Shown: positions 10,394-57,504 of the stretch, in pieces
Layout: every line of letters begins with the position of its first letter
Position numbering within the stretch: position 1 is the first letter of the stretch
NCBI GenBank assembly: GCA_034401795.1
Contig: CM067374.1
Location: 98,738,860-98,802,859 of the forward strand
Direction of reading: 5' to 3'
DNA: 64,000 nt
Origin: Chaetoderma sp. LZ-2023a
Lineage: Eukaryota > Mollusca > Caudofoveata > Chaetodermatida > Chaetodermatidae
Position numbers and translations under genes: made by a program
The notes under the pieces: model-generated
What the model saw: the letters and a program-made list of their open reading frames with translations, nothing else
The model's database searches: none
What the model was told of the DNA's origin: nothing

Positions 10394-10800
10394 CCGAAGC
10401 AGATTTTGGAATCAATGTTGGACAACTGTTTTCTCTTGTCAACCCGTATGGCGAGTACACAGGTGGCAGTACCTTTGAGATGGGACATTTAGATGAGGAC
10501 AGACTTGGTTCATCTTCCTTAGCTCCTCTTATGTCAAGACGACAGCATATCATGGCAAATCGTGCAAGAATGTCAACTTCCCATTCAACACCAGGCTCAA
10601 GGAAAGAAATAGATTTAAAGCAACAATATAAGGCAGATTGGCAAAGATTGAAGATGCAACGCGTAATGAATAAGGAGTTTGATGAGTCATTTAAAGCGAA
10701 ACAACGAGAACGCAAGCGAAGAAGCTTGCAAAGAAAACGTGAACTGAAAATGGCTGCTAAGATGCAGATAAATTTACAAGATCAGTTAAAAAAAGAGTAA
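10394..10800 (+). CDS. Terminal exon 1 of a repeated basic-motif exon family
   Basis: Product unknown. The exon opens after a T-rich acceptor ending in AG at 10393. Two bases (cc) complete a codon begun in an upstream exon, followed by 134 residues and a TAA stop. An N-terminal segment reads 'LFSLVNPYGEYTGGST', which aligns with the start of exons 2 and 3. The C-terminus (10672-10725) is 'KEFDESFKAKQRERKRRS' followed by more basic residues, probably a helical nuclear-localisation or DNA-contacting segment. No initiator upstream is needed: the frame is open across the acceptor but the region before it is non-coding in character. I read it as an alternative last exon of a gene starting left of the window. 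A stand-alone two-exon gene is the alternative. Confidence 0.75.
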
Positions 10801-11340
10801 CATTGCAGTTTGCTGAATTTTCTTATAACTTATTCTTCCATAGATTTGTCTGTCAGAAAATAGCTGTGTGTGTTTGTGCCTGTATATCTTGTTGATCGTT
10901 TGGATCTACAGATTATACCTGTTAATTTATGTGGCTGAGCTTTCTCAGTACATTACCTTATCTGACTTTCAATTCATAAACCTAAATACCAAGTGTATAA
11001 TAATAAGATTTGCTAATTAGTGAAAATTGGTGAATTGTATCTAAAGTATTTCTATCACATGCAATGGAATTTAAATCTGTAGCGATCGTAATTCGTGATA
11101 GCGGGCCGTAGTGCTACGCTTAATTGAGTCGTGATGTAGGAATTCCCAAAAGTGACCTTGGCAAGACAATCCGCTGAATGGCATCTGCCGGTGTCATCAC
11201 TAAGCAGCAAGAGGTCATGTAGATTTGAATGCATGAACTCATTTTCAGTGATTGCTGCCATATTATCCCACCGTCCTCTCGCATACCTGCCATTTGCCTA
11301 CATGTCCTCACACCTTTACTTAGCCATATCCTTTAATCCA
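10801..11340. other. 3' flank of exon 1
   Basis: Probable 3' untranslated region followed by spacer. I see no canonical AATAAA in it. Reading frames on both strands around 11055-11311 show no family resemblance and overlap each other. Confidence 0.4.
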
Positions 11341-11549
11341 CTTAACCCTTCCCACTCTGGTGTCAATATTCTATGTTTTACTGTGTCAACAGCGAAGAAA
11401 CTGGTGTACATTTTTCAACAATTTTGGTGGATGATGTTGCTGTCTATGACAGCAACATCTTCCACCAAATTTGTTGAAAAATGAACACCAGTTTATTTTA
11501 AAATTTAATTTTAAAGTTAAAAGTTTTGGCATCAGAGTGGTAAGGGTTA
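11341..11549. mobile_element. Family E hairpin MITE
   Basis: Ends are 'ttaacccttcccactctgg' and 'cagagtggtaagggttaa', inverted and flanked by TTAA. The centre is a hairpin: 'tggatgatgttgctgtc' pairs with 'gacagcaacatcttcca'. Copies also at 15325-15512 and 45786-45997. No coding capacity. Confidence 0.8.
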
Positions 11550-11737
11550 AATGTTCACGATTGGCCATGAAAATAAAAGTATTTGCTTATTGTATGTCTA
11601 TTTGCAGGCCAAGAGAAGGCTATTTGTGAAAGTTTGCCCCTAGAATGACTGGCTCGATTACCGATCCGGTCATTCTATTTGGGAAATTTTCAAACAAACA
11701 GAAGCAGTTCCTGGCCGACTTGACCATTAATGTCTTA
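11544..11737. repeat. Family D hairpin MITE
   Basis: Contains 'tagaatgactggctcgatta' mirrored by 'ccgatccggtcattcta', between a left half with 'tgtctatttgcaggccaag' and a right end 'cttgaccattaatg'. Confidence 0.6.
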
Positions 11738-11889
11738 ATAACCTTAAATTTAATAATTATTCATGACCTCAGGTCAGGCAAGTTCTATTAATGAAATGGC
11801 TCGATACATGTAGGAAATAAAGAATCATCATGGAAAATTCATCCTTTCAAACTGGCAGACCAGACATGACAAATTCTTTATGCCATCAC

Positions 11890-11980
11890 AAATATTTGGT
11901 TGAATATTTTGAAATTAACTTGACTGCAAGCTCAGCATCTTGCAATTAACTTAGTTTCAAAACTGAATTTCAACAGCTAT
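11890..11980. repeat. Family C hairpin (decayed)
   Basis: 'ttgaatattttgaaattaac' at left is mirrored by 'ttaacttagtttcaaaac' at right, with a shortened centre. Confidence 0.55.
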
Positions 11981-12750
11981 TCCATCTTGTTGCTTTTAAG
12001 TGGAGATATTTATTTCGTCAAGATATTTGTTTCAGCATTTTGCCAATGAAGTGACGTAAGCTAAAGTCTGATTGGTAAATCACAAATGCTGTATGCAATA
12101 TTGATTGTCTCTGTAATGTTATGTTCCATAGTGGGAGATTAAAATAGCTGAAAGTACAGCCACGTATTGAGAAACAGTGTGAGGAAGTGTATTGTTAGTA
12201 TGATGATATTAACCCATGTGTGTGGCAGCATTTACAATATATTCTTGCCTAATAGATTTTCAATTCATCCCAATAGGACGAAACACAAGGATGGCTCAAC
12301 ATTATTGTGAGTGGCATCCAGTCTCCAATTTGTGATTTAAGTAGAATGTTAGTTTTCACAAAAATGTGCTGTACAGCTCATAAATAAGTTAACATGTTTC
12401 CAAGACAAAATACATGGTAGGGAGTACAATTTTGAACACGATGTAAGAAATGTTCTTCTGAATAGCTTGAACATAATTGGATTGGAAGGCATTGAAAGAC
12501 AGAGCTTGTCAATTGTTGGTGTTCCGCAAATTACGCAATTTATTATTGGCAGTTGTATCTATTCTCTGCTTTGTTTAAAATGGATTTGATTGACTTCTAA
12601 ACCACTACTAAAAATACTTGTATTTCACCTTTCACCAGTCATGCCAGTGATTGAACATCAATGTGTTATTGAGAATTGAAGAATTATAATCTATTGCTTG
12701 AAATTTGAACATTGTTTCATGTCATGTATAACTAACTGTACAGTCATGAT
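11981..12750. other. AT-rich spacer, nothing recognised
   Basis: No coding frame longer than background and no repeat family that I can match to others in the window. Confidence 0.5.
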
Positions 12751-13122
12751 AATGGATGAATCCAGTTTTAGCTATGCCCTGCCAATCTCTAGCTAAGCTC
12801 CACCCATGCTTTGACTGTGTTGGGATCAATCGATCCCTGTACTCTGAATCTCAATTTCTAGAAAACTATGGAGGTAAGCTGTTGAATATTTTGAAACTAA
12901 TTTGACTTGGTGCTTTTCCTGCCTATGGAAGGAACAGCACCCAGTCAAATTAGTTTCAAAATATTCAACAGAATGTTTATTAAATAGTAAAGACATACAT
13001 TTCATACAACTTGACAGACAATTAAGCATTTACATCACTAAATCATGTCATTCTGAGGTCAGCCTACATGTGACGTTGATTATGACGTCATGTGCTTGAT
13101 CGATAAACTTGATTCCTCCATT
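12751..13122 (+). mobile_element. Family B MITE with intact family C core
   Basis: Runs from 'aatggatgaatccagtttta' to 'gattcctccatt'. The centre (about 12880-12972) is a long hairpin: 'gaaactaatttgacttggtg' pairs with 'cacccagtcaaattagtttc'. The region after the hairpin holds several 'atgtcatt' and 'tatgacgtca' stretches that are also shared by other copies. Confidence 0.8.
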
Positions 13123-13314
13123 GGTGTTGCGGTCACCTTCATGATGGAGAGGTGAGCTATATATGAAACCAGTGACACAGATATTATGCTCTTCACAGAT
13201 TGTTGAACTTAATCAAATGTATTTGAATTGTTAATTTTCTTCGACAAAATTCACCTGTGATCACAGAATGATGATTCTTAGAGTTTTATTCATCTTTTGT
13301 TCATGGTACATCCG

Positions 13315-14305
13315 TTAACCCTCTAACCATTTAACCCTTGAATTTGTTTAAGAAAATTTAAGTTTTCTCATAGAAAATGTCTATTGGCAGACCAAGAGAA
13401 GACTATTTTTTTTAATTTACCACTGGAATGACTGGCTCGTTTATCGAAAGTAGTCTTCTCTTGGTCTGCAAATGGACATTTCTGAAGACCACTGCAGAAG
13501 TCGTTTTTGGCTGATATGAGTTTTAAAGGGTTAATAGCCAAGATTAGTCATGAAAATCGAAATCTCTGCTTAGTGATTGTCTATTTGCGGATCAACTGAA
13601 GACTATTTTCGAAGGTCTGTGACTGGATTAACTGGCTCGGCTATCAAGCAAGTCATTCCAGTGGTAAATTATCAAAAATGGTCTCTCTTGGGGTGCAAGT
13701 AGACATTCTTCAATACAGAGGGCAATTTTGGCCAGCTTGACCATTAAAGTGATAATATTAAGTACTGGTGAATCTAGAGTTCTATGATTACATAATTTGC
13801 ACTTGATTTTCTTCATTGTTACTAATAAAACTTAACCCTTTAATCCAGTAATGGTCAAGCTGGCCAAAACCGACCTTTGCGTGCCAAGAGAAAACTAAGT
13901 TTGAAAATTAACCACTGGAATAACTGGCTCACTAAACTAGCCAGTCATTCCAGTGCCAAATTTTCTAAAATAATCTCCGCTTGGCCTGAAAATGAATATT
14001 CAGTAAGCAAACATTTTTATTTTCTTGACCAATCCTGACCATTAACCCTTTAACCCTCAAATTTGTTCTCACGAAAATGTCAATTTGCAGATGCAGACCA
14101 CAAGATATATTTTTGAAAAATTATCACTGAAATGACTGCCTCGGTTATCAAGCCAGTCATTCCAGTGATAAATTTACTATTGGAATGACTGGCTCCATTA
14201 TCAAGCCAGTCATTCGCGTGATAGATATTCAAACCTAAACTCTTGGACTGCAGATGGGCATTTCTCAAGAGGCCATTTCAGGCAGACTTGACAATTAAAG
14301 GGTTG
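13315..14305. repeat. Cluster of four family D hairpin MITEs
   Basis: Four family D copies lie close together: about 13315-13531, 13529-13750, 13834-14045 and 14042-14305. Each shows 'ccctttaa' or 'ccattaaagggtt' type ends, the phrase 'ggaatgactggctc' and usually its complement 'gccagtcattcca', plus the flanking 'gaccaagagaagacta' arms. The first copy has lost its hairpin centre. The cluster ends about 400 bases before exon 2. Confidence 0.7.
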
Positions 14306-14474
14306 ATAGGTTGATTATGCACTCATTTCTGCACTACAATACAGCACCGCCATTCACATGTTCATAAGGAAGTGCACAGATATTTCAATAACAATTGATA
14401 CATTTTAAAATGACAGTAACTAATTTTGTTCCAAGCAATCGTGTAACTTTATTTTGTTTGCAACCATACTGGAT

Positions 14475-14573
14475 ACCTGCTGGATAATTTTGAAAATAAT
14501 TTGCTTGAGAGTTGATGTTGTGTAGGGAAACATCAATTCTCAAGCGAATTATTCTTCAAATATTCAGGAGATT
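14475..14573. repeat. Hairpin related to family C
   Basis: The left arm 'aataatttgcttgagagttg' is mirrored by 'caattctcaagcgaattatt' around a 15-base centre. It lies about 130 bases upstream of exon 2. Confidence 0.55.
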
Positions 14574-14702
14574 GTTGATCAAGTAGTATAGTGGAAGAGT
14601 CTATGCGGCCCCTAACTATGTCTTTCAAGATTGTTGGTTTTAAAGAGTACACAACCGTTTCTTAAATAGGAATAAATCAGTATAGAATGTTATTTATTGC
14701 AG

Positions 14703-15202
14703 CGTTTTCAATTGTCCTGTCAGATCCTTACTTCACATACAACATTGGAAGCACATTTGTATCTGGAGATCAAGAGCAATGTTACAAAAGACATCAAGTG
14801 ATTACTGGCCCAAATGACGGTTTATATATGCCATCTATCACAATACAACAGCAAAAACAGCAGAGAAAAAGACGTGTGATGATGACGCCTCGTAAGAAAG
14901 GTCGTAGACCATTGCAACCTTCTGCAGAGACAATTTTGAATCATCGAAGACGGTACAGTAAGGAGCAAGTTGAAGACGCAAAGCGGATGCGTATGATAAG
15001 TAAAGAATTTGATGAAGAGTTTAAGTCAAAGCAACGTGAGCGAAAACGCAAAAGTGTGAACAAACAACGCACGATCCAACAAGCACAATTAGCAATGTTT
15101 CCAGAAGCTTCTGAGCAGCAGTATTCACCTGTGGTACTAACATATTCGAATGTGTGTGATAGCGGTGCATCCGCTGATCAATTGAGCATTGATAACCTGT
15201 AG
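14703..15202 (+). CDS. Terminal exon 2 of the repeated basic-motif exon family
   Basis: Product unknown. The acceptor 'gttatttattgcag' ends at 14702. Two bases (cg) complete an Ala codon, then 165 residues run to a TAG stop. The first residues, 'AFSIVLSDPYFTYNIGST', match exon 3 ('AFSLGLIDPYLEYSMGNT') closely. A basic middle part contains 'RKKGRRPLQP', which resembles an AT-hook but has RRP where the core is normally GRP. The conserved C-terminal block (15002-15055) is 'KEFDEEFKSKQRERKRKS'. A tail of about 50 residues follows that is absent from the other exons. Codon-level divergence from exon 3 with retained motif suggests selection. An in-frame ATG at 14687 lies before the acceptor and is probably intronic. 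Confidence 0.8.
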
Positions 15203-15324
15203 TGAAACATGACTTCCTTACAATTAGGTTTATTTACCAACAGGTCATTGTAATATGCTAAACCTACACTAATAACATTGGAAAGTCTATGTATCAAATT
15301 CATCCTCAGAATGGTTCTAGTAAT

Positions 15325-15512
15325 CCTTACCACTCTGATGTCAAAATTTAAACTTTACAAATTTAATTAAAGATGAACTGGTGTTCATTTTTCAACAAAT
15401 TTAGTGGAAGATGTTGCTGTCATTGAATTGTTGAAAACTGTACACCAGTTTCTTTGCTATTGACACAATAAAAAATAGAATATTGACATTAGAGTGGTAA
15501 GGGTGGACTTTC
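15325..15512. mobile_element. Family E hairpin MITE in the 3' flank of exon 2
   Basis: Runs from 'ccttaccactctgatgtc' to 'tagagtggtaagggt', with a shortened hairpin centre near 15415. It brings an AATAAA at 15467-15472, 265 bases after the exon 2 stop. That is a possible polyadenylation signal, but this is only position-based inference. Confidence 0.7.
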
Positions 15513-15989
15513 ATTGATACAGATCATAAACAAAGAAAACATCCAATCGCAATTTACACTAATGACAATGCAGATGGAAATTCCTTATGAGAATATTTCT
15601 GTGGTATTAACTAGTTTTGACCTGTAAGCCATTTATAAGTGTTCATAAAATTCCTACAGAACGTTATCAATATTACATGTACTTTTCTATGTATTTAATT
15701 GAGAAGAAAAATATTGCGATGACCGATTGTGTATACCAGATTGTTGACTCACGTTCTAACATGCTGCATAGATGGCCTGTGTTGTTATTATGTACATATT
15801 GCTATAAGACTAAAGTTTCTGTAAATTATGCTCCTCAACCAACTGGCAGTTCAGGTTTAGTTAGCATTCCATGAGGTTATATTTGTTATTACAAGTACAG
15901 TGACACATTTTCCAACCGAAATAACGAGACACTAATAAATTTGTCTGGTTTGAAAAATTTATCTGGTTTTGTGAGCATAGTTGCGTTTG

Positions 15990-16215
15990 GGAATTTCAGG
16001 GTAGAATCCTAATTTATTCAAGAGAATTTCAATTTTCTCATAGTAAATGTCTATTTACAGACCTTGAGCTGATTATTTTTGAAAATTTATCACTGAAATG
16101 ACTGGCTTGATTATCGAGCCTGTCATTCCAGTGGTATCTTTTCAGAAATAGTCTTGTGTTGGCCTGCATATGTACATTTCTCTGCCATCTTTAGACAGCT
16201 TGACTGTTAATGTTA
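15990..16215. repeat. Family D hairpin MITE
   Basis: 'actgaaatgactggcttga' is mirrored by 'cgagcctgtcattccagtgg', with the usual outer arms 'aatgtctatttacagacc' and 'ggcctgcatatgtacattt'. Confidence 0.65.
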
Positions 16216-16370
16216 ATATTATACTTTACATATACATTACATCATGTTTTCATATTTTAGATTCTTTGGCTTTCACATGTGTACGCACACAGGCATGCGC
16301 TACACATACACAGACACACTTCCACTCGGTCTCTCATTTGTGAGACAGCTCTGTTTTCATCTCATGTGCG

Positions 16371-16436
16371 CTCTCTCTCTCTCTCTCTGTCTCCCTCTCT
16401 CTCTCTCTCTCTCACACTCACTCTCTCGCTCTCAAT
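16371..16436. repeat. (CT)n microsatellite
   Basis: An almost pure CT/CTCC run of about 65 bases. The Ser/Leu-rich frames crossing it are artefacts. Confidence 0.9.
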
Positions 16437-16439
16437 ATC

Positions 16440-17193
16440 TAGGAACAATTATGTTGCATTCCTCCTTCAATATATCGCTAATTCTTGAACAAAATATATC
16501 TATCCTTAGTCTTGATATACATGTATGTCAATTTGCAAACCAAAATATTATTTTTGGAAAATTTGCCATTGGAAAAATCTTGTTTTGCATATACAGACAT
16601 TTCCTATAAAAAAAATTAGATTTGCTTTTAAATTTCTAATGTTCATATTTATACAATTGTGATTTTATTAATATCAAAATCATGTGTTTTATGTTAAAAC
16701 TTAAGATTTACTCTAAGATGTGTAATTTTGTAGGAAAATATGTTGAATAATAAAGTACCAATAATTACATTTTCATTAACTCTCAATCATGAACTTTTCA
16801 CTGTGGCATCAGCGGCCTCTGTTAGTCAGTTCCTCTTGGCATGATAACCTGTACTATTGCTGAATATTGTGTTACTCTAAGCTGTTGCTGTCATAGATGT
16901 GGTACAATAGATTGAAACAACACCACTTGCATGATTTAGAGGAGCCCTTTCCTTCCACCAGCTATCATACCAATATTGGTAACTCGCTATCAATTTATGA
17001 CTTTAAGGCTACAAACCTACAATGTCTTAATTGAAGTGGCTTCCTAAGGTTAGATACCATTGACTTCATAGCCTCATCTACCTATGCTAAGTGTGAAAGG
17101 GAATTGATTGTTTTTTCATCCATTTGTGCTGCCATCTCATACATGTTGCATACACCACATGTAGGTCATCTCATGATATAATTTATTCACACC
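16440..17193. other. AT-rich spacer, nothing recognised
   Basis: A decayed half of a family D-like arm may lie near 16525-16605 ('catgtatgtcaatttgcaaacc'). Otherwise no recognisable feature. Confidence 0.4.
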
Positions 17194-17618
17194 AATGGAC
17201 TGTTCCACTTTATCCATCCATCCTATGTCGTCATAATCAACTATGTGACGTGTAGAATGACGTTATAATGTTCAAATGATGTCATGAATGGCGTAGGTAA
17301 GTACGTCACGAATGCCTATTTGAAGACGGACTATGCGTTGTACGAATTGTATGTCTTTACTATTTAATAAATATTCTGTAGAATATTTTGAAACTAATTT
17401 GACTGGGTGCTGTTGCTGCCTATGGCAGCAACAGCACCGAGTCAAATTAGTTATAAAATATTCTACAGCTTACCTGTATAGGTTTCACGAAATTCATAGT
17501 TAGGGCAATCGGGGATCGATTAATCCCAGCAGGGCGAGGCGTGGGTGGAGCTTAGCTAGTGATGGGCAGGCCGTGGCTAAAACTGGAAAGTACATGGCTA
17601 AAACTGGAAAGGTTCATT
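17194..17618 (-). mobile_element. Family B MITE, reverse orientation, near-perfect hairpin core
   Basis: Reverse copy relative to 12751-13122. The core at about 17380-17467 is the best-preserved family C hairpin in the window: 'ctgggtgctgttgctgcc' then 'tatggcagcaacagcaccg'. The right end 'aaaactggaaaggttcatt' matches the end of the copy at 49206-49550. Confidence 0.8.
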
Positions 17619-18529
17619 GTTATGGGCCTTATATTAAGACACCTTTCTTACCTTTCTGTTACCAAGAGCTTCAGGATGACCATCCTTCCTAATTTTTACG
17701 AAATATCCGGATTTATAAAGCCTCCAGATTTCTGGTCAACAGTCTGGATTTTTTGCTTAAATGTTTCTGGGAGAAAATACAGACAAATTCTAGTTAATAA
17801 TGCTGGGTTAGTTCTGTGGTACGAACATACATCACTGGAAGGCTAATTATGCAATGTCGAAAAGATCAGTTCTTTCACAGGTAATTGGGAAATGGATAAC
17901 TAGAGTGGAATAGGGATTAATATGTTTCATGTTTGCAATTGTATCAGGAAAGCATTCGCGATATTGTTTTGCGATGGCCATTTTCTTTTCCCCACACCTC
18001 CAACGTAATAAAAGAACTTGTCAAATCTAAATCTGGCCTCATTCAGTTTTTGATGCCCCGTGTGTAAGACATGGGGGCAAAGCGCCCCAAATTTCAAAGT
18101 TACTTCACATAAAATGTAGATAAATCATGAATAGAGGACGCAAGAATGAAATGAATATGTTTATAATTACGTTCTATTCAATCCAGCATAAATACACATT
18201 CAAAATTGGATATAAATGTGTAGTTATTCTCAGACGAGGTAGTCCACCTTGCACGAACATCAGGACATTTTGGAGATATCAATAACGTTGACGTCATTGA
18301 TCCATGTGTAGTTCGACTCAATTCAATCCAATTAGTTTATTTGCATATCAATGCAAATGAGCTCTAAACAATGTAGTGGTGGAAATACTGGCGCTAAAAT
18401 GTGTGTATATATATACACCTAGCCACCTATCATAAATCTTAGATCATGGTAATATGTACACATGCACATTGTTTTTGGCAAATGGCAATTTTGGTAAAAT
18501 GTAAAATGATGTGGTTTGGTGTTGGTGTG

Positions 18530-18679: not shown

Positions 18680-18741
<62 letters not shown>

Positions 18742-24270: not shown

Positions 24271-24635
24271 CATTTTCGCTTGGTCTGATAGATCCATATC
24301 TCGAGTACAGCATGGGAAACACAATTACATCAGAAATGCAACAACTTCAGTATCAAACACAAGTTACTAGATCAACTGGAAGTTTTCTGCCTACTGTGAA
24401 GATGAGACAGAAGCAACGGCAGCAGCACCATCATGCAACGATTACGGGTACACGACCTGCTAGGAAAAGTCATAGCAAAAACCACTGGGAACGCCTCAAG
24501 AAAATGCGTCAAATGAGTAAGGAATTTGATGAGGAGGTGAAGGCTAAGCAACGTGAACGGAAACGGAAAAGCTTGGAGAAACAACGTGCAATTAAATTGG
24601 CACAATTACTTTCAACATTTCCTGAGCAGCAGTAG
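24271..24635 (+). CDS. Terminal exon 3 of the repeated basic-motif exon family
   Basis: Product unknown. The acceptor 'tttgtatttcttgcag' ends at 24270. Two bases (ca) complete an Ala codon, then 120 residues run to a TAG stop. It starts 'AFSLGLIDPYLEYSMGNT', has a Gln/His-rich basic middle ('KMRQKQRQQHHHAT'), and ends with the conserved block 'KEFDEEVKAKQRERKRKS' (24519-24572) followed by 'LEKQRAIKLAQL'. The closest relative in the window is exon 2, which shares the opening, the motif and 'KQR.I..AQL'. Compared with exon 2 it lacks the long C-terminal tail. Same splice phase as the other five, so it would be interchangeable with them in one transcript. Confidence 0.8.
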
Positions 24636-25735: not shown

Positions 25736-26384
25736 CAGCATTGAACGCATCACATCTCAAGCCTCAAAATATCTCGCACAGATCCTGAAATCACTAGTTG
25801 GCAACTCAGAGCACCACATCAAAAATGCCAAAGATTTGGCCACCAAAATCCAGTCACTTGAAGTCCCTCCCACGCACAAACTAGTTTCCTTCGACATATC
25901 TTCACTCTTCACCAGCATCCCAGTGGACAAGGCTCTTCCAGTCATCCAGAGAGTTCTGGACCTACACCCTACATTGAAAGACTGGACCAGCCGCTGACCA
26001 TCCCAGATTATGAGCCTCTTGAAGTTCGTGTTAAACACCACCTATTTCATTCAGAATGGCTACTTCTACCACCAAACTCATGGAGTATTTATGGGCTTAT
26101 CAGTGTCGCCAGTGATCGCAAACCTTTATATGGAATCCTTCGAGCAACAAGCACTTAGTACAGCCACAGACCCCCCAAATTTCTGCTACTGGTATGTGGA
26201 TGACACATTCACATGCCTGCATCACTACAACATCCAACTTTTCACTGATGACCTCAACAGTATCAACCAATGCATCCAATTCACCAGCGAAGTCGAAGAA
26301 GATGGCGAGATTGCCTTCCTGGACGTCTTGGTACATGTCAGTGATTCCGGAACTACCAAACTTACAGTGTACAGAAAACACACA

Positions 26385-26452
<68 letters not shown>

Positions 26453-26740
26453 CAGATCAATATCTAACTTTTCACTCTAATCACCATTTGGAACACAAAA
26501 GGTCAGTCGTCAGAACTCTATTTCACCGCGCACACTCCATCATCACAGAAACATCAGACAAACAAGAACATCATCACATCCAACAGTCTCTCCTAGCCAA
26601 CGGTTACACTTCGTGGATGAGAAAACCGCACCCCCCCCCCCCCCCCCCTCCCACCTTGTAATAAATTTCTACATCCCGGAGAGGTAACTAATTTTTCCTT
26701 ATTATGAATCATCCTGGGATCAGGACCAATTTTTTCAGAA
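25736..26740 (+). mobile_element. Truncated Penelope-like element
   Basis: A fragment of a Penelope-like retroelement that covers the central reverse transcriptase. It lies inside a family B MITE. Beyond the reverse transcriptase it carries a (CACG)n run, more reverse transcriptase-adjacent coding similarity, a poly-C tract (26631-26648) and a short tail. The GIY-YIG endonuclease normally found downstream is missing, so it is a truncated, inactive copy. Confidence 0.75.
25760..26640 (+). pseudogene. Penelope-type reverse transcriptase, broken
   Basis: Reverse transcriptase fragment of the Penelope class. Readable motifs in order are 'PPTHKLVSFDISSLFTSIPV' (motif A, with the catalytic Asp in FDISSLF), a stop near 25996, '[18 protein letters not shown]' (motif B) and '[13 protein letters not shown]' (motif C with YVDD). 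Next come 'EIAFLDVLV' and 'LTVYRK'. A (CACG)n expansion (about 26380-26440) follows, after which the protein similarity resumes in a different frame with '[20 protein letters not shown]'. In intact relatives the YRK and the HTDQYL parts are nearly adjacent, so the microsatellite grew inside the coding sequence and shifted the frame. Confidence 0.8.
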
Positions 26741-26944: not shown

Positions 26945-28432
26945 TACTGAGCCAAAATTTTTTAGCATCATTGAAGTTTGGTTTGTTGTATTAAAACTAT
27001 GCGTCCATTTATAACCAAATTTGCAGGCATGTTTCGTCAATGTAATGTGTCGCTGATCATGAAGAAATGCAAATCATTTCTTGCATTTCTCGGCTGCACG
27101 CTTGCTGCATGTGAAAATGCATTTTTCATGCACTGGCCCACATTGGCGGGTAGCGAAGGCAAAAATTCACCATATTGCAAAAGCAGATAACGAACGTTAA
27201 CAGAAAACGCTTAAAAGTTTACCCTACTGAACATGGGCCGCCGCTCAGGGCTACCCGAAAATCAGCGCCGTGAAGCAATGGGAAGACTCGCTGCTGGGCA
27301 GAGCGTTTGCGCTGTTGCTCGACATTTTAATGTTCACGCCTCAACCATTTCCCGTCTCCGCCAACGTGAGCAGGAAACTGGACATGTTAATGACCGACCA
27401 CGATCTGGCAGACCGAGAGGAACAACACCACGAGAAGACCGCTACTTAGTGACGTCATCACGACATCACAAGTTTGAGACTGCGTTGCGACTGTCCCGTA
27501 ATTTGCACACCGCTACCGGCACTACAGTGCATGCACAAACTGTGCGAAACAGACTCCATGATGCTGGACTGCATGGCCGTCGTCCACTTGTTGCTGTTCC
27601 GCTTACAGAGCATCACATCGAGAATCGGTTTGCGATGGCGTGCTCAACAATGAAGCCACGTTTTGTTCAGTGACGAGTCAAGGTTTTGTGTGGATGTGGC
27701 GGATGGTAGGCAACGGGTTTAGCGACGTTTAGGAGAAAGGTATGATGCAACCAACATCATTCAGCATGACAGATTCGGTGGCGGCAGTGTCATGGCGTGG
27801 GCTAGAATCCATGAAAATGGCAAAACAGATCTTATTGTGATTCGCGGAAATTTAACGGCTCAACATTACTGTGAAGAAGTTGTCGCCCCTGTTGTCATCC
27901 CTTTTATGCAGCATCAAGCAGACTTTATGTTCCAGCAAGACAATGCCCGTCCTCATTCAGCTAGTGTCACCAGTGATTTCCTTGAGGCTAACAACGATCC
28001 GGTGTTGGACTGGCCAGCGCGATCACCGGACCTGTCTCCTATCGACACGTGTGGGACATTCTTGGCTGTATGGTGCGTGAGAACCATCCACATCTTCACA
28101 ATGTGCGGGAGCCGGAAGCTGCACTGCTCCAGGAATGGGATGCGATTCCTCTTCGTGACATCAGGTGCTTAAGTCGAAGCATGAGAAAGCGATGTACGGC
28201 GGTGGTTAATGTATGCAGAGGTCACAACCGGTATTGACAGCTCAGTGTCATTATTTAAATTGGACCCTTGTGTTAAAGGCGCGATGCTAGCATTACAGTA
28301 ATAAGAGACTGTTGTTCAAATTGGAAAATGACCTATCAATTAAATAATGTATTTGAATCAATTTATTGTTTTTGTTAAATAACATTTATACAGTAATATT
28401 CTCAGTGTTGCTAAACTTTTTTGGTTCAGTAT
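26945..28432 (+). mobile_element. Tc1/mariner transposon, copy 1
   Basis: The inverted ends are 'tactgagccaaaattttttag' (26945 onward) and 'ctaaacttttttggttcagta' (to 28432), flanked by TA-rich sequence as expected for TA target sites. About 1.49 kb long, encoding a broken transposase on the + strand. The second copy at 58838-60270 is in the opposite orientation. Confidence 0.9.
27233..28237 (+). pseudogene. Tc1-type transposase, inactivated
   Basis: Cut-and-paste transposase of the Tc1/mariner superfamily. Residues 1-60 of the first frame contain a helix-turn-helix ('VARHFNVHASTISRLRQRE') and a GRPR-like linker ('RSGRPRGTTPRED'). The second DNA-binding part follows ('TVRNRLHDAGLHGRRP'). The first catalytic Asp would lie in 'VLFSDESRFC', reached only after a frame change and stop near 27650-27673. 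The second lies in 'MFQQDNARPHSA' (in the frame 27792-28172). The segment expected to hold the Glu (34 residues later, DD34E type) is destroyed by a 2-base loss near 28043, which gives 'SPIDTCGTF'. The remainder continues in the frame 28049-28237. It cannot make active enzyme. Confidence 0.9.
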
Positions 28433-41159: not shown

Positions 41160-42230
41160 ATTTATCAAGGGGGTATGACATGATTAAATCTCATGATTCT
41201 TACTCCCAAGTCAAGATGGAGACCATCTCCCAGATCATTTTCAGTCTAGATCAGGTATGTGGTCGTTTTCCATCGACCAAAGTGGGACCTTCTTTCATGT
41301 TCTCATTTACCCTTCCTTCAGAAAATTCCTGAGATTTGCTTACTAAGATCGAGTTTGGCAGTTTCACTTCATGCCTTTTGGCCTGACCACGGCTCATTTT
41401 CTTTTTACTCGCCTAGTCTCAGCTGTGGCAGGAATTTTACACCGTCGTTCTATACATGTTTATATAGATGATTGGTTAGTAAAGCAAGTCTTCCTCAATT
41501 CTCTTAGGAATTCTTCCAAAGGTTTGCAGTCTGACATGCAACCTAGGGTGGATTTAAAATCTAAAGAAATCAAGCCTGGGTCCCTCTCAAAGCTTCACGC
41601 ATCTAGGCGTTTCTTTCGATCTAGCCCAGGGTCTAGTCTTCCCCTCAGATCCAAGAATAGAGGCTTTATCAGTGGCAATGGAAATCATGTCTTCTTCTTC
41701 CATGGTCTGAGTAAGATTTCTGCTAAGAGTGATAGGTTTGATGGTCAGCGTAGAGAATGTTATTCCATGGGTGATGCTGATGAGAAGATCCTTCCAAATG
41801 TATTTTATGTCCCTTTGGAAGCAGTCGTTTCACTCTATTTACCATCAGATTCCCATCAGAGAACACTTGATTCCTCTTCTAGATTTTTGGAAAGATCGTT
41901 CTCTGCTTCTGGTGGGTGTTCCACTGGTAAAGTCCTCACCTCAGGCGATTATCTTCACAGAAGCTTCTCAGGAGGGATGGGGAGCGGTCTGGTGCTCCCT
42001 GTCAGTTTCCGGTCTTTGGTCCCTTGAGGAGTCGACAGCTCATATCAACATTCTGGAATTGTGTGCTGTCAGGAAGGGTCTCCTTTCATGGTCAGATCTT
42101 GTGATAGGTCACAAAGTCTCGATTCGGTCGGACAATGCGACAGTGGTCTCTTATATCAACAGGCAGGGGGTACAAGGTCATCCCTCCTTTGTCTAGAAGT
42201 GTGGAACCTTCTCTTATGGTGAATTAGATT
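41160..42230 (+). pseudogene. DIRS reverse transcriptase and RNase H
   Basis: Copies the element RNA into DNA. Readable pieces, in order, are 'YSQVKMETISQIIFSLDQ' (41200s, the conserved block before motif A) and 'SIDQSGTFFHVLIYPSF' (motif A with its Asp, near 41268). An in-frame stop (41342-41344) follows 'RKFLRFAY'. Next are 'FHFMPFGLTTAHFLFTRLVS' (motif B, 41371 onward) and 'HVYIDDWLV' (motif C with IDD, 41456 onward). The RNase H part in another frame (41729-42196) shows 'AIIFTEASQEGWGAVW', where the usual first Asp (TDAS) is Glu, then 'HINILELCAVRKGL' and 'SIRSDNATVVSYINRQG'. These are the classic ELxA and SDN motifs. Confidence 0.88.
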
Positions 42231-44763: not shown

Positions 44764-45065
44764 CGTTGATGGCTTTCGCCAGTACGACAGCTGGAATATT
44801 TCCTGAGAGACAATGGCTGACAAGTATGTATCCCGATAATCACAGCAGCATATCGGGACTGGAATTGTCCACCAGCCCAGCCAGTCCAAGGAATATGATG
44901 GGGACGATGCGCTACCTGAACTCATCCCGGACACGCCGTCGTCAGTTCGATCCAAATTATGATGAGTTTTGTAAAATGAAACAACGAGAATGGACTCGTA
45001 AACACCGATTAAAACAACGATTGAGATATACATCTCAAGAGCAGCAGAATTATGAAGAGTCGTAG
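44764..45065 (+). CDS. Terminal exon 4 of the repeated basic-motif exon family
   Basis: Product unknown. Two bases (cg) after the AG at 44763 complete an Ala codon, then 99 residues run to a TAG stop. The first part is Ser/Pro/Met-rich ('SGLELSTSPASPRNMMGTM'). A basic stretch 'SSRTRRRQFDPNYDEF' leads into the conserved block 'NYDEFCKMKQREWTRK' (44955-45002), followed by 'HRLKQRLRYTSQEQQNYEES'. It belongs to the distal subtype, in which the Arg after KQRE is replaced by Trp. An AATAAA at 45373-45378 may be its polyadenylation signal, although it lies beyond a MITE. Same splice phase as exons 1-3, which is the main reason to group them in one gene. Confidence 0.8.
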
Positions 45066-45997: not shown

Positions 45998-45999
45998 CG

Positions 46000-48266: not shown

Positions 48267-48586
48267 CATTTCATTCCGAATGGAGACGACAAATGACCAA
48301 GCAAAGGATATCAGCAGCACATGATGAATCTGCATTGTCATGGCAACCAAGTGGGCAACTTGACCTATCACATTTTCATCCTGATGACCTGGGATTGATA
48401 GATTATTCGACGATTGATCAAATCAAGCGTAGAGTGTCTTATGAAAAGGTTAAAGATCGCAGAGAAGCGGACAAGAATTATGATGAGTTTTATAAAAGCA
48501 AACAGCGAGAATGGACACGAAGGTTTCGGTTACGACAGAAACTAAAGACACTTTCAAAGGAATTGCAATTTGATCCCAAATCTTAA
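48267..48586 (+). CDS. Terminal exon 5 of the repeated basic-motif exon family
   Basis: Product unknown. Two bases (ca) complete an Ala codon, then 105 residues run to a TAA stop. It opens 'AFHSEWRRQMTKQR', has an acidic/aromatic middle ('LDLSHFHPDDLGLIDYST'), a basic linker ('IKRRVSYEKVKDRREADK') and the conserved block 'NYDEFYKSKQREWTRR' (48476-48523), followed by 'FRLRQKLKTLSKEL'. It is closest to exons 4 and 6 (same NYD[ED]F and KQREW signatures) and the 'DRR.[AT]DKNYD' stretch is shared with exon 6. The last 40 residues could form one basic helix. Third-position differences from exon 6 are many while the motif is kept. Confidence 0.8.
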
Positions 48587-49844: not shown

Positions 49845-50077
49845 TAACCATTTAAATGTCAAATTTTCTCAAGAAAATTAAGATATTTGCTTATTGAATG
49901 TCCATTCGCAGGCCATTTTTGAAATTTTACAGCTGAAATGACTGGCTCATTTATCGAGCCAGGCATTCCAGTGGTAAATTTCAAAAATGGTCTTCCAGAC
50001 CTGCAAGTGGATATTCCTTAAGACCGCTACAGAAGCTACAGAGGCTGGATTTGGCCAGCTTGGCCATTAAAGGGTTA
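49845..50077. repeat. Family D hairpin MITE
   Basis: 'gctgaaatgactggctcatt' is mirrored by 'tcgagccaggcattccagtg'. Ends 'ttaaccatttaaatgtc' and 'ggccattaaagggttaa'. Confidence 0.7.
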
Positions 50078-50609
50078 ACTTGCTTTTGTTAAGTAAAATA
50101 AGATATTGTTAGATGGTATTTTGCAGACCAGGGCTGATGGCTACACTTAATTCAATGAAGACGATGTAAAGGATCTCAATAAAACTTCACTTCTTTGGTT
50201 ATATCCAGTTTGCATCATTTAGACAATGATTTTCTTAATCAAGTCTTTTTTTGTAATTTATTAGCATGTTTTCAATTAGTACTTAGTTCAACAATTGTTT
50301 ATATGATCAAGAAACACATTCAGATACAATTATTACATCAATCCCGATTGGATTTCACTTTTTAATAAAAAAAAGTTGTCTCCCGGTTGCAGTGGCATAA
50401 CCTGGTTTGCAAAGCTCTGGGTGTGCAAAGCACAAATTCCTACCTTGGTGATTAGGACAAAACCAGTTCAGTTGGTGTGGAAGTTAGTACATGAGGATAG
50501 CTGAATTAGTCTTCCAATAGACATTTAATTCAAGTTTTACATATATTTGATTTTAATAAAACCTTGCAGTTTTTCTTATGCAGTGATTGCATGGAGTTTG
50601 GATCACATG

Positions 50610-53260
50610 ATGTTTTATTATGATGTTTGACCATGAAAGACCATCATCGACCATGCAAGTTAAATGGCAAAACAGTCGAACCATGGTTGACCATGATCAA
50701 CAAATTTCTCATGACCATGATAAAACCATGTTTGACGGTCTCTGACAGACCATAGTCAAACAGAACATGGTCAGACCATGGTTTGACCATGGCTTGAATA
50801 ATGCCATTTGACCCTGGTTAAATATGATTGGCCATGGTCTTACTGTGGTGCCATTGAACCTGCATGGTTGACCATAGGTCAGCAACCCAGCTCCACTTTT
50901 TTGCCAAAATGCAAGACTGTACAGCCTACAACATTGTACTACTTTGGTCTTAGCCAAAAGGACGAGAAGTTATTACAACATTGTTGGCATTGTAAGCATT
51001 GCCATGAGCTAGTAGCTGCGGGAATAGTCATGAAGATATAAAATATTCTAGATATATAAGACTGAAAATTTTGGAATATTTAACCAACATTGACATTGTT
51101 TGAAATCAAGTTTATACAAGAATTTGGCATGTATTATTACTGGTATGTTTCTATGTATATGCCATTTTTACTATTCAAATGTCATAATTAATGATGATTA
51201 CATAATTTATGTGCAATAGAATAATTGAAAACTTTAAATGCAAAAAGACACATGTTTTCAGTAAAAGAGTTGCCTCCCTTATTAAAGTACACTAACCATG
51301 TTCAAAACATGGTCGACCATCGTCAAATAATTGATCCTGAAAATGTACAAAAACAGTTTTTAAAAGGGCATTTTTAGCACTTTAAAGTTTAAGAACTGTT
51401 CTTCAGTCATTCAAGAGCAGCTTAGGAACATTTTAAGACCTTAAGTTCAAGAATTGTTCTTCAGTAATGTCTATTTTTTAGATATTGAGTGACATCTCTG
51501 ACCATGATATCACTGTCAATAGGAATAACATTCGGTAACCATGGTCGACCATAATATATCATGGTCAATAATGGACTTTGATAATTGTTAAAAATATTTC
51601 TGACACATCTGACCATGATATCACTGACAATAGGAACTAGAGAACATTTACTAAAGTAACTGTAAATCTGCGATGTCTGGCCATGAAGAAATAGTACAAG
51701 GCCTCTTCTAATAAAGAGATGAAATAAGGTGTGTCTTCGAACATGATCTTTGAAGTTGCATAATGAAAGGCAGGTAACTTATGCCAAACATGGAAACAGG
51801 AAAGATTTACCCATGCATAACCTCGACACAAGGGAGATATTAAAATGTTCATTGGAAATTTCTTAGATCTCAATGTTCGAGAGTCTGGCCAGGTTTGAAG
51901 AGAATCGGAAGAAAACTATAGGAGATAACACTGTTCCAATATTGCTCCCATAGGTTTACTATAGGGATATGTGGCACACAAAAGCTGATATTCTCAAAAT
52001 CTGTCAGTGGGATCAACTTTAAATTCGATACCAAATCAACTCAGTATGAGACCTAGAAGTTCACCAGATTTCAAGTCGATCGGAGCAAAACTCATTTTGG
52101 CTGCCATTTTGGGTGATTTTTTTTTTCCAATGCATGTTCATTTCTGCAAAAAGGATTCTTGGTCATTTTGACCCCAAACAGTTCTGGTCGTCATTTAAAA
52201 AAAAAATTTGAAAAAACGAAAACTAGTATTTTTGGCCAAAATTTTTTCATGGTGGTCATTTTGAAAAAAATATTTTTTTCAAAAATAATCATCATTGGTA
52301 ACATCCTACCTAAGTATGGTAGTGATCCGATCAAAACTCTAGGTGTAGTGGCACTTCAAACATCCATTTGAAATCCCGATACATTTCCTATGGGACCTTT
52401 TTCCATGCATTCACGGGTCAAAGGGCTGGCGGCCATTTTGGAAAAAAAAATTCTTTGCAAAAACAAATTGCCAGTAATAACATCCTCAGCAAGTATGGTA
52501 GTGATCGGTTGAAAACTCTAGCTATAGTAGCACTTCAAAGATCAATTTTGAAAATCCCCATACATTTCCTGTGGGACTTTTTTGCCCACTTAAAGGTGGG
52601 TAGCTCGAAAACTATTGGACGGATCCAAAAGAAAAACAATAGCACACAATTCCGGCCTGAGTAGCAGAAGTTGACCAAAGTTGGAGTTGATCGGATGAAA
52701 ATTGTAGGAGGAGATAGGGTCCCAACATTTTGACGAAGAATAAAGAAGAAGAAAGATCCTGAGTGATTTCAATAATATGCGATTGACATCGCAGATTAAT
52801 AACATTGAAATTCTCCAGTGACCATGGTCGATCATGATATATCATGATCAATGAGGGACGTTGATAATTGATAAAAATATTGGTGACATCTTCCCATGAA
52901 CTAACCATGATTTCACTTTACAAATGATGAACAACATTGAAATTATCCAGTAACCATGGTCGACCATGCTAGGGCATGGTAAATGACATAGAAATTATGT
53001 TATACATGAACTGACCATCAAGTGACCATGATATCATGGTTGATAACAAAACCTCTGAAATTTATGGCAAGCATGGTCACACACGGTCTGTCATGGTCAT
53101 CTGACCATGATATACTAACCATGTTAACATGGTTATCGGACCATGATATACTAACCATGTTAACATGGTTATTGGACCATGGCCAGGTGAGTAAAATAAT
53201 AATGGTCGACCATGGTCAAGCTATGAACTACAATGGTCGACCATGACATCATGGTCAGCA
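50610..53260. repeat. GACCATGG/TGGTCGACCA palindrome-rich repeat region (family H)
   Basis: Three blocks (about 50610-50880, 51295-51640 and 52815-53260) are saturated with GACCATG and CATGGTC. Several full palindromes 'catggtcgaccat' occur (near 51309, 51540, 52957, 53204 and 53232). Units of the type 'taaccatggtcgaccat' then 'atatatcatggtcaatga' recur. At 53100-53180 a unit of about 50 bases ('ccatgatatactaaccatg' then 'ttaacatggttat') is repeated twice. The interval 51664-52797 is a separate insertion. No coding function is evident. Confidence 0.75.
51664..52797. mobile_element. 1.1-kb element with perfect 13-base inverted ends, inside family H
   Basis: AATCTGCGATGTC at 51664-51676 is exactly mirrored by GACATCGCAGATT at 52785-52797. 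The interior is unlike the surrounding GACCATGG repeats and contains internal repeats ('agtatggtagtgatc' at about 52313 and 52494, each with 'aaaactcta' and 'agcacttcaaa' or 'gcacttcaaa' downstream), plus 'gttgatcggatgaaaattgt'. No transposase is present. Class unknown. Confidence 0.6.
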
Positions 53261-53639
53261 GGAGATCAGGACTTTGCACAATCTAATTTGCATATAGTTA
53301 TTCAATCATTTATCATTTACGAGCTTAGTTGAGACATTTTTAGTGCAATATTGTATTAATGCATTTCATTAAATCAGGGGTTGAAATAAGTGCTTTTTTC
53401 ATGCACAATGGCTGTTGAATCTGAATTATGATCATATCCTGATTAATGTTGATCCCCCAACATTTCTACGATCGATATGGCGTTTCTTTATCGATACAGT
53501 ATTGTCAGTTCAACTTAATGTAACAAGAGCAATTAGAGATTGCAGACCCTCGCCTACCATGTTTGTCATTGTTAACAAACCTTAGTTTGACAAGTTTTTA
53601 AAGATTTTCTAGACTTTCTGATCACGTGCAAAGTTCTGA

Positions 53640-53935
53640 AATCCTAGGGTATGGTCACACCTTAGTTTACTTGTCTTAAAATTTGAGCCACATCGGACCA
53701 ACAGTTTTCAACCATAGATCCATAATTTGATCCGATCCAGATCCTGTTTCTTTTGTGTGGATCATGGCCAAAGTCTAAAAATCCTCTTGTATGACAAGTT
53801 CCTGTGTTGTGTTAAAAGTTAGAGTGAAAATGGATCAGTAGTTTTGAGATGTAGCTCTGGGAACATGCACACAGACAGACAGACCCAAATGCAATAACCT
53901 ATTCCCTTTACGGGTAATAAAAATTGGCTCCTCCA
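53640..53935 (+). repeat. Family G repeat
   Basis: Shares 'cctagggtatggtcacacc', 'cacatcggaccaacagttt' and 'gatccgatccagatcc' with other copies, and ends in a 'cagacagacagaccc' run and 'tacgggtaataaaaa'. Confidence 0.7.
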
Positions 53936-54055
53936 TGAACTATTGGAATCTTTATTAACACAAGCTTATGGGAGAGCTGTGGAATATTTCCTGCATATGG
54001 ATTATAGAGTTGAAAGTGTTAAATTCGTATGTAACAAATTATGTATAATTGTTGT

Positions 54056-55502
54056 TCGCTCACCTGGACAGAATGGACAAGAGAGCTTATGCCGTGGCGA
54101 CCCTCCGTCGTCCATCTGTCCATCAACTTTTGCTTTAAAATGTATCTCATAAACCGCTTTGCAGATTTTAATCATATTTGCCTAAAAGGATCATATCGAG
54201 GTAGGCTCTAGAACATCTTTTCATATTTTTTATTTTTCAATTTTTGGGTAAAAAATCTCAGATTTTATAAAAATTTACCGGAAAGTGTCAAAGCGCATCT
54301 CCTCCTTAACTTCTTGACAGATTTCAGCCAAATTTGGTTGGACGGATCCTATGGAGGTAGGCTCTAGAACCTCTATTCACATCTTTGATTGACCAATTTT
54401 TTGGGTGAAAATCTTAGATTTTGTAAAAACCGGAATGTGTCAAAACGCATCTCCTTAGTTTCTTGAGAGATCTCAGCGAAATGTGGCTTGAAATATTATA
54501 TGGATCTTCTATTGAAATGTTTGATTGGTCAATTTTTGTGGTGAAAATCTTAGTTTGTAAAAAATTTACCAGAGTGTCAAAATGCATCTGCTCCTTAGCT
54601 TCTTGACAGATTTCAACAAAATTTTCTGGAAGGATCATATAGTGGTAGGCTCTAGACCTTCTATTCAGATTTTGGATTGGTCAGTTATTTTGGTGAAAAT
54701 CTTGGGTTTTATTTTTTTTAATTACCGGAAAGTCAAAATAGATCTCATTAAATGCTAGGCAGATTTCAATCTAATTTGCCTGAAAGGACACTATGGGTGT
54801 GGGTTTCTGAACTTGTATAGACTTTTTATTGGTCATTTTTTTGGATTAAAATCTTATTTTATGAAAAATTTACCGGAAATTGTCAAAACACTACTCATTC
54901 ACCGCTAGGTGGATTTCAATCTAGTTTGGCTGGAAGGACTCTATGGGTGTAGGTTTCAGAACTTCTATACAGTAGTTTTATTAGTCAATTTTCGGTGAAG
55001 ATCTTCCATCCTGGCTTTTCCAAAAGTTTTGTGGAATCAGTTGGAAGGACCCTAGGTGGGTAGGCTTCAGGACGTATATACAGAATTTCGATTGGTCAAT
55101 GTTTCTGGTAGCCGTTTTGGATGTTCCAGAAATAGTTTACAATGATAATCAATGGCCAGATTTCAACGAAACCTAGGTGGAATGATCCTATCGTAATCGG
55201 CTTCAAGATTTCTAATGAGTGTTTTGATTGGTCATTTTTTTTCGGCAGCCACCTTGGACTTTCCAAAAAATTTCCAGAAGCATTTACATCACTACTACTA
55301 CTAATACGGCTCAATATCAAACACATTTGGGTGGAACGACCCTTTGATGATAGGCTTCAAGAAATCAAACGAGAATTTTGATTGGTCAATTTTCTTGGTG
55401 GCCATCTTTGATTTCCCGATAATTATCCATCATGTCTATTTAAATGCAAACGTTTCAAATGCTAATGGTCCAGGTGAGTGCCACAGGTCCTAGGGCCTCT
55501 TG
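54056..55502 (+). repeat. 'CTCACCTGG' family repeat (family F), most complete copy
   Basis: Left 'gctcacctggacagaatgg' and right 'ggtccaggtgagtgccacag' are mutually inverted. The interior has about eight diverged units of roughly 170 bases, each with 'ggtaggctctagaac' and 'gattggtcaattttt'. Short frames on both strands inside it are incidental. Confidence 0.75.
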
Positions 55503-56093
55503 TCATGTCTACATTTGGCTACTAGTAAATTCTATCAAAGATACAAGTGAACCAACAACCTGTCTTAAGGAGCCATTGACTCATTTAGCTTAGCGCTTTA
55601 ATGACCAAATTTGGTCAAGAAAATTAAATTATTTGCTTATTCGCAAGGCCACTGTAGAGGCTGGCTTCGACATAAAATGGTTAATGGAGGGTATCAGTCA
55701 ACTATCTGAAGTCATAATCAAATACATCACATGTTAGCTGATGTCACAATCCTAATGGCATAGATCCATCACTAAAATTCGAAAGTCTATCACAACATCG
55801 TAAGAAATGTATTTCTTGCCAGCCTTATTTGTCGCCGAGACATTGACACTGTTGTATAATATATCTGATCCTTTCCATAATTATGTAATTACATTTCTCA
55901 TTGATGGGTCATGCTAAGTTCTTTTACTAATCTGAGCGAAGCTATGCATGTCACGACACCAAGCCAAACTTTAAAAAAAAATTCTGCTATCTTTCATTTT
56001 ACCAGTCACACTAGCATATGTTCAAATGCAAGATCAACTAAGTTGATAAGTCGATGACACGTCACCACAAATCCTCACGTTCACCGCTTTGAA
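55503..56093. other. Spacer with a deleted family D remnant
   Basis: About 55594-55683 retains only the two outer ends of family D ('gctttaatgaccaaatttgg' and 'taaaatggttaa'). Otherwise nothing recognised. Confidence 0.45.
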
Positions 56094-56720
56094 CTTTTGA
56101 CCCCACCCCACGACCCACCTCAGGGGTTGGAGCCAAATGTAAATGTCCTCTTGCACTCCGCAATCATATGGGTAACTCACATACCAAATTTGCTTGAATT
56201 CTGTTCAATGGTTTCGGAGGAGTTGCATTATAATCAATTTTTTGACTTTTTGACCCCTTTTCCCCACCCACTCCTGGGGGTGGGGCCAAATATAAATGTG
56301 CTCATGCACTCCACATCGATATGGGTAACTGACATACCAAATTTAGTTGAATTGTGTCCAACGGTTTCGGAGGAGATGCGTTACAATAAATTTCCACAGG
56401 TTAAAATTTAACCTTTTGCATTGGAGGCGGAGCCAAATGTAAATGGCCTCTTGCACTCCGCAATCATATCGGTAACTAACATCAAATTTGGTTGAGTTCT
56501 GTCTGACGGTTTCAGAGGAATTGTGTTACTAGTGATTTGACCTTTTTAACACCCCCCCCCCCCCCCCGATGGTGGAGCCAAATGTAAATATTGCCTTCCA
56601 AGGCGGAATCAAATGGATAACCCACATACCGAATTTAGTTGAAATTCACCCAACGGTTTGGGAGGAGATAGTGTGACGGACAGACAGATGGATGGAGGTG
56701 ATTACAATATTCCACACACA
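56094..56720 (+). repeat. Tandem array of about four 155-base units
   Basis: Units contain 'ggagccaaatgtaaatg', 'ttgcactccgcaatcatat' and 'acggtttcggaggag' and start near 56094, 56245, 56405 and 56540. A poly-C tract lies at about 56551-56566 and a CACACC run near 56715. The 104-residue frame over it repeats the same peptide and is not a gene. Confidence 0.75.
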
Positions 56721-57118
56721 CACCCCCACACACCCCCAATGCTTTTTTTAAAACGGGATAAATATGTGGTGTACATTATATTTGTGCATATGCGTATTAC
56801 CTGCACAGTTTCTTAACATATACACTGCTAAAGTGCCGGTTTTCATGAACCATCATCTGTTCAGGTTTAAGCTGAATTTATACTTTTTATGCGGCTACTG
56901 TTCAGGATTGAATCAGCAGTTTCTGTTTTGTAATGTTATCGCTAACCATGCTTATGTACTGTGTGTGAAGTGTCTCACAATTGGTATCACACAGTGTGAA
57001 GAACTAGCAACCTATACTACAGACTAGTACAGATACTATAGAATCTCTTTGCTCTTATTATGGTATAAAAACTCAGTGCTATTGTTAGATATAAACAGAT
57101 GATAATTCTCTTTTTCAG
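56721..57118. other. Spacer before exon 6
   Basis: A Cys/Phe-rich frame at 56764-57027 has no recognisable family and I leave it uncalled. The acceptor 'gataattctctttttcag' of exon 6 ends at 57118. Confidence 0.4.
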
Positions 57119-57504
57119 CTACAACCTTTTCAGAGGAACCGCCTTTCAACATGTCTGAGGCCTATGAAACACAGCACATGGCTCCATCGCAAGAAGCAAT
57201 GTATTTTGATAACACCACCGGTGAATGGCTATCAGAAATGGGAGTAGATTCTAGACTGTTGATGACGAAAAGAGGGCGTCCGAAAAAGTACCCTGATTTG
57301 CAGGGTCTCACTACCGAGTATAGTGGTTTGATACATGAGGATATTGTTAAGCAACAGATGAGATACCAGCGAATGACCGATCGTAGACAGACAGACAAGA
57401 ATTATGATGACTTTTGTAAGCACAAGCAACGTGAATGGGCAAGGCGGTATCGGCAAAGGCGTAAAGAAACCAGATCTCTAAGTCATTACCATGGAAACCA
57501 GTGA
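57119..57504 (+). CDS. Terminal exon 6 of the repeated basic-motif exon family, with an AT-hook
   Basis: Product unknown. Two bases (ct) complete an Ala codon, then 127 residues run to a TGA stop. After an acidic start ('ATTFSEEPPFNMSEAYE') and 'FDNTTGEWLSEMGVDSR' comes 'TKRGRPKKYP' (57262-57291), a textbook AT-hook core (RGRP flanked by Lys) that binds the minor groove of AT-rich DNA. The conserved block 'NYDDFCKHKQREWARR' (57400-57447) is preceded by 'MTDRRQTDK' and followed by 'YRQRRKETRSL'. The AT-hook is the strongest hint in the window that the family acts on DNA or chromatin in the nucleus. A possible AATAAA lies at 58065-58070. Confidence 0.82.

Follow-up and report, generated by a model that had tools for sequence, protein, structure and literature searches.

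We examined a 64,000-nucleotide stretch of the Chaetoderma sp. LZ-2023a genome, called the window below (contig C16, positions 98738860 to 98802859 of a 2.44-Gb assembly), which carries an array of six short exons, e1 to e6. A molluscan origin agrees with 44 genome matches over the cut-off to the haemocyanin beta-sandwich family PF14830, which is the molluscan type, and with repeat types of molluscan appearance. Features are given in window coordinates, and negative values or values above 64000 denote positions on the same contig beyond the window (Table 1). The first-pass annotation had described six forward-strand exons with two-base entry phase, stops of their own, T-rich CAG acceptors, and a common basic motif, and inspection bore this out for all six. 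Each acceptor is a CAG behind a T-rich tract, and the long frame is open from the two-base phase only, the remaining phases giving at most 42 residues. Given the entry bases listed in Table 1, a preceding G always yields an Ala codon (GCN). The motif [FY]D[ED]xxKxKQRE[RW] is found in all six, and a further stretch, FS..[DN]PY..Y, lies ahead of the first Met in e1, e2, and e3. The first of these (at 10394-10430) starts 11 residues ahead of the other two; by reading, e1 still has the CAG homologous to the e2/e3 acceptor, but out of phase, which looks like the takeover of its role by an acceptor farther upstream.

A profile built from the six exons and scanned over all six frames of the window scored 111 to 165 bits on e1 to e6, on which it had been trained, and no more than 6.6 bits on any other frame; five residue-shuffled sets of open reading frames reached at most 7.4 bits. 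Single-sequence phmmer searches connected many pairs, not all (E = 2.7e-19 for e3-e2, 1.3e-13 for e5-e6, and 3.9e-4 for e1-e6; neither e2 nor e3 was among the matches of e6). On these sequence comparisons, the six window exons are homologous. Scanned over 100 kb on either side of the window, on both strands, the same profile detected two more intact exons, eU and eD, and a decayed one, eP. The exact motif is departed from by one residue in eU and by two in eD, and all eight intact basic exons enter in the two-base phase, the codon completed after a G being Ala in seven and Val in one. The original reading of one locus with at least six alternative C termini is supported as to the locus, and its count was too low, since eU and eD raise the number of intact basic exons to at least eight. 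Genome searches with e2, e3, e6, eU, and eD returned matches to the basic family at this locus only (at E < 0.1 for e2, part of e6, eU, and eD, and at E < 0.001 for part of e3), and copies at other loci were accordingly rejected.

Judged by nonsynonymous (dN) and synonymous (dS) divergence in a 30-codon core (NG86 method), the core of the basic exons is under constraint: dN was far below dS in the three computed pairs (0.16/1.9 for e2-e3, 0.20/2.1 for e1-e3, and 0.25/2.95 for e5-e6), in which dS was near saturation, and the e4-e5 and e4-e6 pairs gave no dS. These values bear on the proposal that the basic exons are functionless fragments, either in decay or derived from mobile elements. Such a history would fit the decayed state of eP and the existence of two dispersed-repeat copies, L028 (C6:69677542) and L030 (C12:124027227), that code a weakly similar motif, but eight of the nine frames are intact despite near-saturated dS, the core has kept a low dN, and both the acceptors and the split codon are preserved; we regard it as highly improbable. 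The two repeat copies, alike by reading, code a motif of the R..D..Y....R.K.RE type whose resemblance to the basic exons is weak (genome-wide E of 0.43 and 0.96), and the repeat may have given rise to the basic motif or may only imitate it.

Unrooted trees separate eU, e1, e2, and e3 from e4, e5, e6, and eD, which is their order on the map (support 70/86 and 85/85, none starred); branches are long and support is modest. Because the grouping follows map order, local tandem duplication probably produced the exons, and the decay of eP suggests that turnover would be continuing. The sequence between the exons had been called unrelated, a description that we would soften to not wholly unrelated: interspersed repeats are common to these intervals, and the 30 nt ahead of the e1 to e6 tracts have a summed pair similarity above that of 3000 of 3000 random acceptor sets, with e6 in no single pair at p < 0.05. 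This similarity may reflect shared descent or a shared splicing signal. A CAG also stands about 22 to 31 nt before the acceptors of e1 to e4 (four of nine array acceptors examined, against 13% of acceptor-like sites); it may mark a branch point or be a decoy site.

None of the basic exons e1 to e6 has a Pfam match over the cut-off, and no relative was found in NCBIfam (searched with e2 and e6), the PDB, or viral contigs. A sub-threshold AT-hook match occurs in e6 (14 bits; cut-off, 17.4), and a Pao-peptidase match of e2 (18 bits; cut-off, 22.3) was dismissed as chance together with other sub-threshold matches. From composition, our guess would be that the basic domain forms a single long helix, through which nucleic acid or a partner would be bound.

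Table 1. Candidate exons of the array and its territory (genomic position on C16 = 98738859 + coordinate)
Feature	Position	Strand	Description	Sequence
NX	-103906..-103768	+	Start exon, 46 codons; leaves G before GTAAGT	
A	-94017..-93127	+	Linker exon, 296 codons; 2 bases in, G out; Ser-rich, acidic run	
BEN-like pair	-47274..-47073 and -46429 to stop ending -46218	+	Phase 0	
QRICH1 exon	-38860..-38204	+	32.2 bits (cut-off 30.8); 2 bases in, G out	
DUF3504-like exon	-35354..-35092	+	Last exon, 2-base phase; 20.6 bits (under cut-off 29.7)	
eU	-21888..-21464	+	Intact basic last exon; six-exon profile E 1.4e-8	FDEYFKQRQRER
e1	10394..10800	+	Basic-motif last exon, 134 aa + stop; CAG/CC, 2-base phase	FDESFKAKQRER
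e2	14703..15202	+	Basic-motif last exon, 165 aa + stop; CAG/CG	FDEEFKSKQRER
e3	24271..24635	+	Basic-motif last exon, 120 aa + stop; CAG/CA	FDEEVKAKQRER
e4	44764..45065	+	Basic-motif last exon, 99 aa + stop; CAG/CG	YDEFCKMKQREW
e5	48267..48586	+	Basic-motif last exon, 105 aa + stop; CAG/CA	YDEFYKSKQREW
e6	57119..57504	+	Basic-motif last exon, 127 aa + stop; CAG/CT	YDDFCKHKQREW
eD	70682..70968	+	Intact basic last exon; six-exon profile E 2.9e-12	IDEYYKQKQREA
eP	~84807..85160	+	Decayed basic exon (six-exon profile)	
C2H2 zinc-finger exon	99758..100140	+	Last exon, 2-base phase, own stop	
Next NX and A'	98896009 and 98902544 (genomic)		Next pair, closes territory; phases of A' equal those of A	

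Two exons on the strand of the array, NX and A, lie about 104 to 93 kb ahead of the window and are candidates for a common 5' part. The start codon of NX presumably stands in a good context, and exon A contains a VKKEKMD stretch that we take to resemble a SUMO site. NX has 32 genome matches at E < 0.01, itself included, none of them with an internal stop. Every one of the nine exon-A matches with an open frame of at least 300 residues has a same-strand NX 1.6 to 22 kb upstream, which makes NX/A pairs at nine loci, the present one included, with a chance of about 0.0002 per exon-A match; the other 21 matches, which are shorter and often stop-bearing, include none with such an NX. No further NX was found between genomic positions 98634947 and 98896009, even at E up to 10. 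Successive NX copies delimit a territory of about 261 kb, in which the intact and decayed basic exons span 107 kb. NX and the start of A gave no Pfam match, and NX had none in NCBIfam, prokaryote contigs, or viral contigs; two PDB matches of NX at E of about 1 were put down to chance.

Exons that could donate the required G were sought in about 273 kb by a scan for coding exons of at least 8 codons that end in G before GT with a donor score above 3, the best 16 of each kind being listed. Exon A and an exon with a QRICH1 match were the two top scorers, and no strong candidate appeared between the array exons. As the ranking scores had been trained partly on the exons ranked, scoring was repeated with codon scores from the array exons only. 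Exon A then scored +22.2 in frame against -52.1 and -122.2 in the other frames, the QRICH1 exon +13.8 against -34.3 and -60.5, and A' +3.9 against -33.0 and -61.1. The ten intact last exons of the territory (eU, e1 to e6, eD, and the DUF3504-like and zinc-finger exons; the BEN-like pair was left out) are long-open in the two-base phase only (86 to 165 codons, against at most 48), and both NX plus A and NX plus A plus the QRICH1 exon read in frame into all ten.

The QRICH1 exon admits a variant in which it belongs to a separate Crypton-derived gene and is itself the common exon, NX and A being part of another gene. Its donor is the strongest phase-matched one near the array (score 8.0), and its seven other genome matches are 22 to 35% identical, none near an NX copy. 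Against this variant, two bases are also needed to enter the QRICH1 exon, and apart from it only A was found as a strong exon ending in G before GT. Relatives of the C2H2 last exon beyond the array, moreover, come after NX copies. We consider this variant rather unlikely.

The C2H2 exon links the locus to others. A genome search scored 150 of 462 candidates and gave at least 94 matches at E <= 0.01, the query included, of which 91 are free of internal stops. Placed against a set of 35 NX copies, 69 of the 94 are located downstream of a same-strand NX at a distance of no more than 250 kb; of the 62 best relatives (self excluded), this is true of 61. They are assigned to 11 of the 35 copies, and the groups number up to 13 on C16, and 8 and 22 on C9, where one member of the larger group stands apart. 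The C9 groups, on one strand downstream of NX at C9:20.198-20.996 Mb, equal or exceed the basic array of the window in size; same-strand C2H2 groups of 5 and 4 follow NX at C11:183.59-184.02 Mb.

With NX and A upstream, G-ending donors on them, and no copy of NX or A found between the array exons, the DNA is best read as the earlier proposal has it, as one locus whose last exons are interchangeable. On sequence, this is very probably one very long gene, a lola-like family member with at least eight related alternative last exons. Its common 5' part would consist of NX, coding a short conserved N-terminal domain, then A, and perhaps the QRICH1 exon, and would end with the codon base G; any single last exon, entering with two bases and bringing its own stop, could be joined to it. 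Exclusive choice among these exons would swap the C terminus between a Lys/Arg-rich domain in eight versions, a C2H2 end, and a DUF3504-like end, and the products may act in transcription or on chromatin. The locus would be one of a family in which C2H2 exons come after other NX copies.

Splicing could proceed from one precursor running through the array, with one last exon chosen, or in trans. The last exons of mod(mdg4) are reported to be transcribed from internal promoters and trans-spliced to the common exons (PMC12692577). An equivalent arrangement here would suit an architecture like that of mod(mdg4) extending over more than 90 kb, but it is not required, since all exons found lie on one strand, and we give internal promoters with trans-splicing only a small chance.

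Several observations weigh against a single long gene in a wider NX family. Homology and splice-site scoring are what identify NX and A; individually, five of the nine paired A matches are weak (E of 0.04 to 0.17, A' among them), the alignment of A with A' is only 33 residues long, 23 of the 32 NX matches have no detected A, and about 150 kb separate A from e6. No zinc-finger match is assigned to 24 of the 35 NX copies, 25 of the 94 matches lack an NX within 250 kb upstream, and 17 lie within 250 kb of an opposite-strand NX; 16 also have a same-strand NX at most 250 kb downstream of them, as expected where loci stand in tandem. Since the basic exons are absent from other NX loci, the case for a family depends on the zinc-finger exon. 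The array-trained codon scores fail three exons: the zinc-finger exon (-24.7 in frame; -45.2 and -35.8 otherwise), the DUF3504-like exon (-3.5; -4.4 and -18.2), and the first BEN-like exon (-6.6; -5.6 and -9.9), and the BEN-like pair enters in phase 0. Finally, a Met occurs within the first 14 residues of eU, e3, e4, e5, and e6, so that an internal start is possible there.

Early Met residues in five of the eight basic exons would also suit a set of small, separate genes in tandem, in which every basic exon has a promoter and a short 5' exon to itself. Tandem duplication would likewise keep the phase, tree neighbors do group together, and first exons that are non-coding or shorter than 8 codons would lie beyond the reach of our scan. 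Against this, e1, e2, and eD have no in-frame Met before residues 29, 42, and 51, respectively, and these three would need an upstream coding exon. The intervals between the basic exons yielded no copy of NX or, in a genome search with exon A, of A, and the candidates listed by the scan between eU and eD score at most 10, except for a piece of e6 at 14.3; candidates with higher scores, at 90951, 140338, and 148249, are located past the intact basic exons. Separate genes therefore seem quite improbable to us, and one long gene remains our preferred reading.

The BEN-like pair scores 16.2 bits as joined exons with an X at the junction, below the Pfam cut-off of 23.2, and was rejected as a direct partner of A because of its phase; the top BEN match of the genome lies 9 kb past A'. 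The introns of the window hold mobile-element relics at 5644-6243, 25998-26477, 27215-27670, 41347-42024, and 59050-59562, comprising three reverse-transcriptase frames (one over the Pfam cut-off), part of a Tc3-type transposase, and a DDE_3 fragment.

In Drosophila lola and mod(mdg4), a common 5' region is combined with numerous alternative 3' exons, so that C-terminal modules are exchanged (PMC4667647). The first-pass comparison with these loci holds for architecture: all ten intact last exons are phase-matched, on the plus strand, and end in their own stops. Candidate 5' coding exons with the matching donor phase lie upstream in the genomic sequence. C-terminal modules are of the C2H2 type in lola and of the FLYWCH type in mod(mdg4); this territory has one C2H2 last exon. 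The comparison does not extend to the BTB N terminus. A genome search (128 candidates scored, 77 matches) placed no BTB match within 1.6 Mb of the C16 arrays, 6 Mb of the C9 arrays, or 50 Mb of the C11 arrays, the nearest on C16 being about 2 Mb from the window; an upstream BTB exon was accordingly rejected, and the locus is not filed in the BTB group of lola and mod(mdg4). Here the N-terminal domain is an unrecognized one, the majority of C termini consist of a basic domain that has no match in Pfam, and one genome contains several loci of this kind. Eight BTB matches with open frames of 933 to 1073 residues, on both strands, occupy about 0.44 Mb at C3:58.97-59.41 Mb.

Vertebrate KIAA1958 has two DUF3504 ends from different exons in the account given by the relevant part of PMC3212892, and the QRICH1 and DUF3504-like exons of the present locus recall it. 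There are ten alternatives here instead of two, and that part of PMC3212892 mentions neither basic nor zinc-finger alternatives; KIAA1958 is a smaller parallel. Compared with Crypton-derived QRICH1/DUF3504 genes, the QRICH1 match here is over the Pfam cut-off and the DUF3504 match under it. The BEN-like pair recalls BEN-domain proteins, but its match is below the cut-off and in another phase, and the six window exons have no BEN match. Among the papers listed by literature searches, none was seen to describe such a molluscan locus, which does not prove that there is none; in one cephalopod C2H2 paper (PMC12513265), word counts gave no occurrence of "terminal exon" or "alternative splic".

On balance we favor the broader view that mollusks, independently of the insect BTB genes, would have evolved a multilocus repertoire of regulators in which NX, as a new short N-terminal domain, would be spliced to one of many C-terminal modules. 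Eleven NX loci with C2H2 relatives (nine with at least two, one with about 21) would belong to it, and one locus would have turned to the basic domain, also new, in eight versions. If this is true, exon choice could give cells distinct regulator identities. Large-scale swapping of C termini from a common 5' part is best documented in Drosophila lola and mod(mdg4), and a BTB-free version at many loci of one molluscan genome would point to repeated evolution of this solution. It would also add two unrecognized domains, the N-terminal one of NX and the basic C-terminal one, and would supply parallel arrays for tests of how exons are chosen, whether splicing is in cis or in trans, and how exons are born and lost.

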